DNA of 64,000 nucleotides from Halovenus aranensis. Lineage in GTDB: Archaea > Halobacteriota > Halobacteria > Halobacteriales > Haloarculaceae. The stretch is taken from positions 1-64,000 of the forward strand of contig NZ_FNFC01000008.1 in the NCBI RefSeq assembly GCF_900100385.1. The letters are read 5' to 3'. Positions within the stretch are counted from its first letter, which is position 1; each line of letters starts with the position of its first letter. The translations under genes and the position numbers were made by a program. This document shows positions 14,527 through 19,169 of the stretch, piece by piece. A model generated the notes under the pieces. It saw nothing but the letters and a program-made list of their open reading frames with translations. It was not told the DNA's origin and did not search any database.

Positions 14527-14715
14527 ACGCACGACGACGTTACGCCTGTCCGGAGATAAGTGTATGGAGAATTATATTTTGGTACGCGACGCTAGAGAAG
14601 ATTGTTTTGGTATGGAAGCACACATATCAGTCGATGTGACGTGAGCGACAGCAGGTTGCAGGACCGAAACGGCCGCGAGCGATAGGCCAATGTGTGTCCA
14701 CAGCGTGCTTTCGAT

Positions 14716-15600
14716 ATGGACAGCGACAGGAACGTCGACGACATCGCGGCGAGTTTCGGTGCGCTGTCGAATCCACTCAGGGTCCGGATACTACTGGCGC
14801 TGACAGAGACGCGCCGGGCAGACTGGGACCACGAGGGCATGAGCTACAGTGACCTCCGGGCGGCGGTCGCGGCCGAAGACGGCGGGCGGTTCAACTATCA
14901 TCTCGACGAACTCCGCGGCCAGTTCGTCCGTGGCAAGGACGGTCACTACTGGCTGACCTCTGCGGGGTCGCGCGTCGTCGATGAAATCTATGCCGGGACG
15001 TTCTCGGGGTCGCCCGGGGGCATTTCGGGGCCAGTAGGCCGTTCCTGTCCAGAGGACGGCAAGCCGCTGGAAGCGACGTTCGAGGACGGCGTACTCTCGG
15101 TCTCGTGCCCGGAGCATGGCACGGTTTTCGACATGTGGCTCCGGTTCGGCGCGGGCGCGGACCGGGACCTCGAGGAGTTGTTCGCGTGGGCGAACCGCCG
15201 CGGCCTGTGGTATCTGGAATCCGTCTCCTGGGATGTCTGCCCACACTGTGCCGGCCAGTTCGGCGAAGCGACCTTTCGCCCCGCCGGGGGCGACGACTCC
15301 ACCGACACAGCTGGGTCTGTCATCGTCGATATGACGTGTGACAGTTGTGCTATCTCCTTTGGGATTCCGGCCCATCAGTACGCGCTCACGAGGCCGCCGA
15401 CAATCGCGTTTCTCCACGACCACGGTATCGACTACCGGTCACTCGCTGTCGAGTACGGCGCTGCCGAGTGGGCACACGAGACAACCCGAACCGACAGCGG
15501 TGTGCTGGTGTGTTTCACCGTCGACGGCGAGCGCCTCGAACTCGAACTCGGCCAGTCGCTGGAGACCCAGTCGTACCGTCGGGACTCCGCCAGGGCATAG
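14716..15600 (+). CDS. ArsR-like HTH regulator with zinc-ribbon C-terminus
   Basis: This 294-residue protein starts MDSDRNVDDIA. An N-terminal winged helix (about 8-95; FGALSNPLRVRILLALTE, then GGRFNYHLDELRGQFV) is followed by a cysteine-rich part with CPEDGKPLEA, CPEHG, CPHCAGQFG and CDSCAISFG, implying one or two zinc sites. Its closest relative in the window is the protein at 42940-43818 with the same architecture. It is likely a transcription regulator; ligand and target are unknown. The upstream region has an AT-rich ATTATATTTT element near 14571. Confidence 0.78.
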   Translation: MDSDRNVDDIAASFGALSNPLRVRILLALTETRRADWDHEGMSYSDLRAAVAAEDGGRFNYHLDELRGQFVRGKDGHYWLTSAGSRVVDEIYAGTFSGSPGGISGPVGRSCPEDGKPLEATFEDGVLSVSCPEHGTVFDMWLRFGAGADRDLEELFAWANRRGLWYLESVSWDVCPHCAGQFGEATFRPAGGDDSTDTAGSVIVDMTCDSCAISFGIPAHQYALTRPPTIAFLHDHGIDYRSLAVEYGAAEWAHETTRTDSGVLVCFTVDGERLELELGQSLETQSYRRDSARA

Positions 15601-16554
15601 TCACAGAAACGAATCCAGACCAGACTGTCGACGCGTACGGCCAGGCGGGTCGGGTTCCCATGGCGACCGCTGTGCGCGGATTTCGTCGGTGTCGAGGGCT
15701 GGCGGCTCACCGGAACAGTAGCCGGCACAGTCGGGGCCACACTCCGTAGCCGGGCGGACGGTCTTTGCTTTCCAGGAACAGTACGGCAAGCCAGCGTCGT
15801 CGGGGGCAATCTGTGTACAACCGGGGAGGTCGTAGGTCCGCCACCCCTTCCCGTAGGCACGCTCGGCGACGCGCCGCCGCGCGCGCTCGATTGCATCGGC
15901 CGACGCGACCCGAATTTCCGTCCGCGTGCTGCTCCGGTCGAGGATTTCGATACCCGGCCTGTCAGTCGGGAGTTGCTCTGGTTCCCGGAGTACCTCGCGG
16001 TCGCCGGTCTCGGGGTCGAACCGCCAGATACCGACCTCCGGTGGGATGCGGTTCCGGTGAGCGCCGGTCACGTAGGATTCGGTCGCCAGTACCGCTTTGT
16101 CGACCATCCCGAGGTTCACGTCGGTGAGAAGTTGTGTCTCGAGGTCGCCCGGCCGACCGAGGTCGGGTTTGTTCTCGATGCCGACGATAGTGTCGAACCA
16201 GTCCGGGTATCGCGTCGCCTGCCTGACGTAGGTCCGGCCGTTGCGGCGCTCGCGTTCGAAGAAGCCGACATCCACCGCCCGCTCGACGACCTGTTCGGCC
16301 GTGTCCGGGTGACAGTCGAAGACATCTTTCCAGTATCGAGCGGTGCCCGGACCGGCGTCGCTCTCGATTGCCAGTGTCGGAATCGACTCGGGAGTGATTG
16401 CGGTGCGCTCGTCGAACTCCGGGCCGGGTTCCACGCAGACGAGGTCCATGACTCGTCGACCGTGGACCTGAGTACCGAGTTGACGGCTGAATACGCGCCG
16501 CTTTCCCGATTCGAGGTGTGCACACAGCGCCAGTTCGAAGGCGAACTCCTGCAC
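15601..16554 (-). CDS. uncharacterised protein with PD-(D/E)XK nuclease-like and Cys-cluster features
   Basis: This 317-residue protein resembles the halobacterial family I remember as DUF5787. An N-terminal helix FELALCAHLE is followed by GRRVMDLVCVEPG, a winged-helix-like insert, then FDTIVGIENKPDLGRPGDL with an ExK, and TQLLTDVNLGMVDKAVLAT. This order (helix Glu, strand Asp, ExK, helix Gln, strand) fits the PD-(D/E)XK core. A C-terminal cluster, CTQI...YCSW...ECGPDCAGYC, plus the N-terminal Cys recalls Cas4/AddB-type Fe-S nucleases. Function is inferred only. It ends on the base after the converging regulator gene and heads away from 16587. Confidence 0.6.
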   Translation of the reverse strand: MQEFAFELALCAHLESGKRRVFSRQLGTQVHGRRVMDLVCVEPGPEFDERTAITPESIPTLAIESDAGPGTARYWKDVFDCHPDTAEQVVERAVDVGFFERERRNGRTYVRQATRYPDWFDTIVGIENKPDLGRPGDLETQLLTDVNLGMVDKAVLATESYVTGAHRNRIPPEVGIWRFDPETGDREVLREPEQLPTDRPGIEILDRSSTRTEIRVASADAIERARRRVAERAYGKGWRTYDLPGCTQIAPDDAGLPYCSWKAKTVRPATECGPDCAGYCSGEPPALDTDEIRAQRSPWEPDPPGRTRRQSGLDSFL

Positions 16555-16586: not shown

Positions 16587-16952
16587 TTATGACGGTTCGC
16601 CCCGAGTACTCGCGACTGTCGCGGCGAGACAGTCCACCGCCTGCTTGACGGCGGCGACGCTCTCGATGGTGAGCGTCTGTTCCCGGACGCCGATACCGCG
16701 ACCGGCGGTCGGTTGCTCCCAGGTCCCCTCGGTCCGGCGGAGTTCGACGGCCTCTGGCAAGAGAACAGCCACTGCGACCGCCTCACCGTCGAGAGTGACG
16801 GTGTAGGCTTCGGTCCCCGCGGGAGACGGCTCTGCATCCGGGTCCGCGTCGGCAACATCGACGCGGCTCAACAGGTCACCGTCCAGTCCTGTCAACTCGG
16901 AGGCGAGAAACTGTCCGATTCGCTTGCCGTCCGTGATAGTGTTCTCGACCAT
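16587..16952 (-). CDS. small conserved haloarchaeal protein
   Basis: This 121-residue acidic protein starts MVENTITDGKRIGQFLASEL. A helical N-terminus is followed by a beta part (AYTVTLDGEAVAVAVLLP) and GRGIGVREQTLTIESVAAVK. No known motif is seen. It is between the nuclease-like gene (32 bases away) and the DUF2240-like gene on the same strand, so it may share their transcript. Function unknown. Confidence 0.65.
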   Translation of the reverse strand: MVENTITDGKRIGQFLASELTGLDGDLLSRVDVADADPDAEPSPAGTEAYTVTLDGEAVAVAVLLPEAVELRRTEGTWEQPTAGRGIGVREQTLTIESVAAVKQAVDCLAATVASTRGEPS

Positions 16953-17009: not shown

Positions 17010-17459
17010 CTACTCTGCGGCCAGCTCTCGCCTGGCTCGGTCGGCCAGCTCCGAGACTTCGATGCCGTTTCTGTGTGCATAGAGGACAGCGGCAGCTTCG
17101 ACCGAGACAGCAAGCTCTGCCTGTAACTCGTTGATGTCTGCCACTGCAGTCTGTTTCTCGATGCCGTGTTCGACGACAGTACCGAGCACTCGCTCGAAGG
17201 TCGTCCGTTGCTGGAGGACGCTGTCGTCAGGTTCGAACGTCTCGTCGACGTCGACAGCACTGAGCTCGAAGGCGACGAGCACGTCGTCGTCCTTGCGTTC
17301 GAGCAGTCCCTCCGTGGTCGCAACGTCGACCAGTCGGGTGGCCTGGTCCGGCGAGAACCAGTCCCTATCGAGCGAGAGCGCGACGATAAATTCGCTCTCA
17401 GACATCTGCTCGACCCCGCGCTGGCGAAACGGAGCAGCCACCGCCCGGCGAAGACTCAT
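17010..17459 (-). CDS. DUF2240-like archaeal protein
   Basis: This 149-residue protein resembles the archaeal DUF2240 family: SLRRAVAAPFRQRGVEQMSE, WFSPDQATRLVDVATTEGLL with E, then a beta part and a C-terminal helical part VEAAAVLYAHRNGIEVSELAD. The first half has a winged-helix look (DQATRLVDVATTEGLLER). The start at 17459 keeps the conserved N-terminal helix; ATG 17405 is an alternative. It is divergent from rS8e. Function unknown; a link to nucleic acid processing is speculation from family context. Confidence 0.7.
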   Translation of the reverse strand: MSLRRAVAAPFRQRGVEQMSESEFIVALSLDRDWFSPDQATRLVDVATTEGLLERKDDDVLVAFELSAVDVDETFEPDDSVLQQRTTFERVLGTVVEHGIEKQTAVADINELQAELAVSVEAAAVLYAHRNGIEVSELADRARRELAAE

Positions 17460-17929: not shown

Positions 17930-18928
17930 TCAGGGTTCCGGCGCTGCTTTCTGAAGTGCGCTCTCGGCGATGTTCGTCCCGTAGTCTGCGGTCCGGGACA
18001 GCGAGTCTACCACCAGACCGAGGACCTGTGCAAGCTGTGGGTCGAACTCGTGAATCTCTTTGTCGACCTCACGCACCAGTGACTCGATGGCGTCGACATC
18101 CCGTCGCGCTCGCCTGACGAGTTCGAGAGCGGCGTCCGAGTCCTCACTTAGTAGCGCCTCCATCGCCGTTTCCGGGACCTCAGACACTTCCTCGTGGAGG
18201 TCACGGAGCGGTTGGGCCGCCGGCTCCGGAATCTCGCCGACTTCGAGAGCGAGTTCAGCGATTTTCGTCGCGTGGTCTGCGATACGTTCGAGTTGACGAG
18301 CGCTCGACTGCAGGTCGAAGCAGGTTTCGCGTGAGAAACCGACCTCGTTTGCGGCAGTCGGGTTCCGCAACACCGACCGAAACACCCGCGAGGTCATATA
18401 CCAGAGGCGGTCCACGTCGTCGTCGCGTTCCATCACGTCGTGTGCGAGTTCGTCGTCGTCCTCGACGAGTGCCTGAACGGCGTCGTTGAGCATCGTCAAT
18501 GAAACCAGCCGCATCCGGGTGACGGCGTTTTGCATCGACAGCTCTGAGGAGTCGAGCAGGTCTTGTAACACCATCTTCGTCGGCATCTCCTCGATGACTT
18601 CGAGGCCGACGAGGCCCTGAGTCGCATCACGAATCGTCCGTCGCTGGTCGGCTGTCATCCGGTCTGTGGTCAGTGTGATAACGTCGAACCCGCTGACGTA
18701 CATCGTCATCACGCCGCGGCGAAGTTCTTCTTCTGCGCTCAGGTCGGAAATGTCGAGTTTCCCTTCTGTACGTCCCTCTTCAGTCTGAGGAGTCAACAGC
18801 AACAGGTCTCCCTCTGAGTGAAATTCGACCGTCGAACCCGAGTTCACACCGTTTTCGGTGGCCCAGTCTTTCGGCAGCGACACCGTGTACGTCGACCCGC
18901 CGGTCACCTGAACTTTCCGCGTTTCCAT
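17930..18928 (-). CDS. PhoU-domain phosphate regulator with AbrB/SpoVT N-terminus
   Basis: This 332-residue protein from ATG 18928 (METRKVQVTGGS) has an AbrB/SpoVT-like swapped-hairpin domain (about 1-45; YTVSLPKDWATENGVNSGS). It is followed by PhoU helical bundles with acidic metal-binding repeats such as MERDDDVDRLWYMTSR and ERIADHATKIAE, and a last repeat with SRTADYGTNIAE. The fusion is common in archaea and links DNA binding with control of the phosphate transporter and phosphate response. No pst genes are nearby. An upstream TATA at 18944-18957 suggests a leaderless mRNA. Confidence 0.85.
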   Translation of the reverse strand: METRKVQVTGGSTYTVSLPKDWATENGVNSGSTVEFHSEGDLLLLTPQTEEGRTEGKLDISDLSAEEELRRGVMTMYVSGFDVITLTTDRMTADQRRTIRDATQGLVGLEVIEEMPTKMVLQDLLDSSELSMQNAVTRMRLVSLTMLNDAVQALVEDDDELAHDVMERDDDVDRLWYMTSRVFRSVLRNPTAANEVGFSRETCFDLQSSARQLERIADHATKIAELALEVGEIPEPAAQPLRDLHEEVSEVPETAMEALLSEDSDAALELVRRARRDVDAIESLVREVDKEIHEFDPQLAQVLGLVVDSLSRTADYGTNIAESALQKAAPEP

Positions 18929-18943
18929 ACTGCTTCTGCGACG

Positions 18944-18957
18944 TAAATATATATAAA
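18944..18957 (-). promoter_or_regulatory. TATA box of the PhoU-like gene
   Basis: On the minus strand TTTATATATATTTA lies about 20-30 bases before the ATG at 18928. This spacing fits a leaderless transcript, the common case in haloarchaea. A short palindrome CTGTCTGACAG lies further upstream near 18980 and could bind a regulator. Confidence 0.55.
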
Positions 18958-19169
18958 TTCTTTGCTCTATATACAGAATGCTGTCTGACAGTAATACATC
19001 CCAGTCTATTGACTGTTGTGCGGTAGTGTGACGTCTCACCGGAGTGACTTTCACAGCGAGTTCGGAGAGTCCAGTATCGGGTACCGGACCGGATTGTGAT
19101 TAATGTGTATTAGGACGTTGTCAGCATATGCACAGAACACTTATCACTGTATAATTGGACAGGCGTGGT

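Follow-up and report, generated by a model that had tools for sequence, protein, structure and literature searches.

NucS/EndoMS is an archaeal RecB-family nuclease with a C-terminal PCNA-binding motif (PIP box), and its interaction with PCNA directs the enzyme (PMC4929162, PMC7776575). Cas4 and AddB bind a 4Fe-4S cluster through one N-terminal and three C-terminal Cys residues, and in 3L0A, the structure of a related nuclease, the corresponding Cys4 site is filled by zinc (PMC3466216). MmcB has been described as a PD-(D/E)XK endonuclease, with a link to resistance against mitomycin C and cisplatin (PMC9578287). Within the haloarchaea, the Haloferax PIP consensus is QxxLxxFx and the Hef protein of H. 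volcanii bears a PIP box (PMC7776575); in the PIP motifs of Haloferax polymerases, the second aromatic residue is reported to be replaced by a smaller one (PMC3504372). The PCNA interactome itself has been described by a reviewer as incompletely known (PMC4929162).

The window analyzed here, a 64,000-nucleotide stretch of the Halovenus aranensis genome (contig NZ_FNFC01000008.1), encodes a 317-amino acid protein on the minus strand (15601..16554), with a GTG start at 16554, a position shared by its orthologs, and a stop codon at 15601-15603. An initial annotation had delimited this ORF without stating its strand, assigned it to DUF5787, and read it as a PD-(D/E)XK nuclease with a possible Fe-S cluster. 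The ORF is real and the family assignment is correct: the DUF5787 profile (PF19100) matches the protein, hereafter DUF5787-A or A, at E=6.9e-98 and 328 bits against a curated cut-off of 25. A paralog in the same genome, DUF5787-B or B, likewise scores above the cut-off. No match to A was found among NCBIfam or PADLOC models, a PHROGs search returned nothing useful, and a literature search for DUF5787 found no paper naming the family. Pfam profiles compared with 125 members (E up to 10) gave no match to a PD-(D/E)XK family, Cas4, or MmcB; weak similarity to PF23601 (DUF7140) was present in 15 of the 125 aligned members (best E = 0.0014). PDB sequences searched with the family alignment profile yielded nothing beyond chance matches to CDGSH Fe-S proteins (E 0.5-0.8), which were set aside.

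The AlphaFold2 model of A (mean pLDDT 94.3, pTM 0.90) is composed, in order, of helix a1 (residues 3-15; 16510..16548), strands at 21-27 and 35-43, the second of which carries D37 (16444..16446), the winged-helix elements of an insert (residues 83-112; 16219..16308), a strand at 120-128 with the ExK motif E127-N128-K129 (16168..16176), a helix at 138-148 that contains Q141 (16132..16134), and a strand at 153-158, all encoded on the minus strand. The last residues of the model are of low confidence (about 51), as expected for a free peptide. Paralog B, modeled with its own sequence as query, displays the same element order (pLDDT 88.4), and the core order of the PD-(D/E)XK fold, abb(D)-b(ExK)-a(Q)-b, is present in both models. 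Every motif quoted in the initial annotation was found: RRVMDLV (D37), GIENKPD (E127/K129), TQLLTDV (Q141), DKAVLAT, the N-terminal C11, and ECGPDCAGYC.

Structural comparisons with Foldseek point in the same direction, through matches that are all weak by E-value (best 0.0013) and superpositions that are often partial and of high rmsd. Three of the top four matches of A among viral models are phage DNA-repair proteins, two of them MmcB (E = 0.0013-0.017, prob 0.97-1.00). Against the PDB, A retrieved AF2093 first (E = 0.018, two chains) and Cas4 SSO0001 third (0.08), and B retrieved the Type IIS enzyme PaqCI first and second (E 0.03), with BbvCI, BamHI, and EcoRV lower; solved PD-(D/E)XK members are among the top PDB matches of both paralogs, but at the weak E-values of 0.03-0.08. 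The AF2093 entry, 2ph7, is an uncharacterized Archaeoglobus fulgidus structure and could itself be a nuclease with the fold of A. Over 36 residues, the insert of A superposes on MecI at 1.5-1.7 A (prob up to 0.96), and the DNA-binding domain of Fur matches the insert of the B model.

Conservation was assessed in an alignment of 125 homologs that covers both paralog groups, with identity down to about 31%. E127, Q141, C246, C259, C272, and C276 each occur in 125 of 125 rows; the near-invariant E7 and E15 of helix a1, and D37, the predicted first catalytic acid, occur in all rows having sequence at those positions; and K129 occurs in 124 of 125. A conserved D and (D/E)-x-K are therefore present across the family and, because they are kept among homologs this divergent, the residue pattern is not chance. 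The one exception at K129 is an A-group protein (L167:5083-6051, genome G165) with a natural ExN (IENNPDL) replacing ExK and an intact PIP box, which could be an inactive or altered enzyme. Two other A-group proteins, L163 and L165, lie on very long branches and retain the C-terminal motif and all four C-terminal Cys residues. Overall, the AlphaFold2 models of A and B, the Foldseek matches, and residue conservation support what was initially annotated, namely a PD-(D/E)XK fold that has its active-site residues in the order of that fold and carries a winged-helix insert. That annotation had named a different fold, or loss of the Asp, ExK, and Cys residues among homologs, as grounds for abandoning it; neither occurred. 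It is very likely that DUF5787-A has the PD-(D/E)XK fold and likely that it is catalytic.

Beyond the predicted catalytic core, the four invariant Cys residues, C246-x12-C259-x12-C272-x3-C276 (15727..15819, minus strand), constitute a predicted metal site, Fe-S or Zn, in which the C246-C259 spacing differs among homologs. C11 in helix a1 is Cys in 77 of 89 close A orthologs and 20 of 20 B proteins, and Ala or Ser in the other 12 A orthologs, all of which retain the four C-terminal Cys. C11 is therefore no obligate ligand, and the C-terminal residues are the better candidates to bind metal. C280, a fifth Cys near the C-terminus, is unconserved (2 of 89 in its alignment column). The Cys residues conserved across the alignment are thus the four at the C-terminus, joined in most members by an optional N-terminal Cys, and not the one N-terminal and three C-terminal Cys of Cas4 and AddB. 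Since zinc occupies the Cys4 site of 3L0A, the metal of DUF5787-A could be either Fe-S or Zn.

The most informative feature of DUF5787-A, and the main new finding here, is one that the initial annotation missed: a predicted PIP box, QSGLDSFL, that forms the last eight residues of the protein (310-317; 15604..15627, minus strand). A regular expression for QxxLxx[FYW] in the last 14 residues matched 122 of 122 A proteins, a set that includes near-identical relatives and 84 members below 85% identity to each other. None of the 50 B proteins matched, and the background, defined as other ORFs of at least 150 amino acids in the same DNA, gave 20 matches among 4707 (0.4%). FEN1 and PolB are among the 20, as is one A member that the start-site filter had overlooked. 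FEN1 and PolB of the H. aranensis genome end alike, in QTGLGDWA and QTGLGQYT, respectively. A genome-wide search with the DNA pattern for QxGLDxF gave 7 matches versus 0 for the reversed control, among them DUF5787-A and a protein with QAGLDAF that we take, by eye from its sequence, to be a Hef-like helicase-nuclease. The A group thus carries, conserved among its orthologs, the QxxLxxF-type C-terminal motif of PCNA clients. The tail of B is instead rich in Arg/Lys, with a median of 7.5 in the last 20 residues versus 4 in A.

Of 59 related genomes searched at the protein level, 54 had matches, usually in two places each, one close (44-85% identical) and one distant (32-40%). Across 295 genomes of the phylum, the Pfam profile scored above cut-off in 52, all of one order and nearly all with two matches; outside that order there was nothing above cut-off and one sub-threshold match (G274). 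The latter was rejected as false, because the protein reads to us as a methionyl-tRNA synthetase that bears Cys knuckles. DUF5787 is missing from some genomes of the same order, at least one of which (G044) is rated 98% complete. The surveyed complete haloarchaea harbor A, with the PIP box, and B, without it, in one copy each, and a tree of 127 representatives splits cleanly into these two groups with support of 100. In H. aranensis, the B copy (G000:C10:13625-14563; L111:5533-6573), a constant second paralog overlooked by the initial annotation, has the same active-site and Cys4 residues as A. The family is also present in the genetic model Haloferax volcanii, where a profile match served as control. 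Phage records contained no relatives and plasmid records contained one (Natronorubrum bangense). With one A and one B per genome and so little trace on mobile elements, the pair appears to stem from an old duplication and to have been retained for housekeeping rather than for defense.

Gene neighborhoods were considered as a clue to function and set aside, since they name no pathway. The neighbors are mostly not replication or repair genes. In the window, a 121-amino acid gene without a Pfam match (16587-16952) and a DUF2240 gene (17010-17459) lie upstream of DUF5787-A on the same minus strand, adjoining ribosomal S8e; this DUF2240-X-DUF5787 order recurs in 5 of 117 usable A loci, close relatives only. 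Elsewhere, across many lineages, A is close to genes that we recognized by eye as putative aIF2-gamma and RNA polymerase subunit E'. A NUDIX hydrolase gene is upstream of B on the same strand in 32 of 43 loci. The convergent neighbor of A in the window (14692-15600, plus strand) encodes a helix-turn-helix protein that has several Cys pairs and contains DUF7347 and DUF7351 domains, and a similar gene occurs at varying positions in the flanks of about 30 A loci. Further upstream, a minus-strand gene (17930-19054) encodes a PhoU-domain protein with an N-terminal MazE/AbrB-like domain.

We propose, with good though not full confidence, that PCNA recruits DUF5787-A and that the protein is a DNA nuclease of the PD-(D/E)XK superfamily that depends on divalent metal, probably an unrecognized clamp-guided nuclease of DNA repair or replication. 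In the mechanism we infer from the model and the conserved residues, the tail QxxLxx[FYW]x would dock in the PCNA pocket and bring the enzyme to DNA that has just been replicated or repaired; the winged-helix insert, which lies between the D37 and ExK strands, and the C-terminal Cys4 metal module would grip the DNA; and E7/E15, D37, E127, and K129 would bind Mg2+ and cut the phosphodiester bond. The substrate would most likely be a flap, branched, mismatched, or cross-linked intermediate. B retains the active-site residues and the Cys4 module, but where A has its PIP box the tail of B is Arg-rich, so B probably performs a related job off the clamp. The genome of H. aranensis also encodes FEN1, a NucS homolog, and Cas4, so DUF5787-A is no simple substitute for any of them. 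Counting against this reading are the weak E-values and often partial, high-rmsd superpositions of the Foldseek matches, the lack of a profile link to Cas4, NucS, or a PD-(D/E)XK Pfam family, gene neighborhoods in which replication and repair genes are few, and the single ExN ortholog.

Three other readings share parts of this evidence. The first, which follows the likeness to Cas4 and AddB drawn in the initial annotation, is an end-resecting exonuclease of the Cas4/AddB/Dna2 type, in which a 4Fe-4S "iron staple" ties one N-terminal to three C-terminal Cys. Cas4 SSO0001 is indeed the third PDB match of A, C11 sits in helix a1 and is Cys in most A and all B proteins, and, as in Cas4, the region after the last long helix is rich in Cys; the four conserved Cys stand, and their metal may still be Fe-S. 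The rest of the comparison is not supported. C11 is dispensable, being replaced in 12 of 89 A orthologs while all four C-terminal Cys stay; the spacing is C-x12-C-x12-C-x3-C rather than CxxCx5C; hhalign against 20 archaeal Cas4 proteins gave Prob 0.1, and none of the 125 members matched a Cas4 Pfam profile; and the same genome has a separate Cas4. We regard an iron-staple exonuclease as unlikely.

It is a little harder still to favor a PCNA-binding structural or regulatory protein in which the PD-(D/E)XK core binds DNA or scaffolds a nuclease partner without cutting. DNA binding might need no more than the winged-helix insert and the Cys4 module, and one member does have ExN, but E7, E15, D37, E127, K129, and Q141 are kept together in both paralog groups, which is unexpected for a dead enzyme. 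A restriction- or defense-type nuclease, to which the matches of the B model to PaqCI and other restriction enzymes might point, is very improbable given that almost all haloarchaea have both genes in single copy, with no PADLOC or phage match and one plasmid match, no defense neighborhood, and the presence of a PIP box.

Taking the clamp-recruited nuclease as the preferred reading, we extend it, at somewhat better than even confidence, to the pair as a whole. A and B would form a haloarchaea-specific nuclease pair and a separate PD-(D/E)XK family, in which a core interrupted by a winged helix is closed by a Cys4 module. A would be clamp-tethered at forks or in PCNA-coupled repair (e.g., flap, mismatch, or cross-link incision), B would work off the clamp, and the two would make a core but unrecognized contribution to genome maintenance in haloarchaea. 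Almost all haloarchaea have the pair, and the family is present in H. volcanii, yet our literature search found no paper that names it. The conserved clamp-binding motif turns a gene of unknown function into a testable candidate for the PCNA interactome, and clamp-bound and clamp-free paralogs with the same predicted active site offer a clean test of how PCNA tethering affects a nuclease.

Compared with known systems, DUF5787 resembles Cas4 and AddB in its predicted PD-(D/E)XK order, in the Q of the helix after ExK, and in four conserved Cys that are mostly C-terminal. DUF5787-A departs from them in its dispensable N-terminal Cys, the different spacing of its four C-terminal Cys, its winged-helix insert, its PIP box, and the absence of profile similarity. 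MmcB-like proteins are the best fold match of A among viral models, weakly so (E about 1e-3, TM up to 0.27 on the query), and the likeness is one of fold only, as no MmcB Pfam match was found in the 125 members. NreA, a PCNA-dependent archaeal DNA repair factor, also has a C-terminal PIP box, and some Nre proteins have a Cys4 metal site; unlike DUF5787-A, NreA is about 400 amino acids long and has no known biochemical activity, and haloarchaeal NreA lacks the Cys4 domain (PMC4929162). The Pfam matches of the 125 members contain no sequence link between DUF5787 and NreA.

Finally, NucS/EndoMS (PF01939) has the PD-(D/E)XK (RecB-like) core and C-terminal PIP box that are predicted for DUF5787-A. 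An hhalign comparison of DUF5787 with NucS gave Prob 0.4 outside the catalytic region and thus no profile similarity; the model of A has no N-terminal OB/Sm-like domain; and A has the winged-helix insert and Cys4 module that set it apart from NucS/EndoMS, a homolog of which is encoded in the same genome. On the best-supported account, DUF5787-A would be functionally like NucS/EndoMS but of a separate family.
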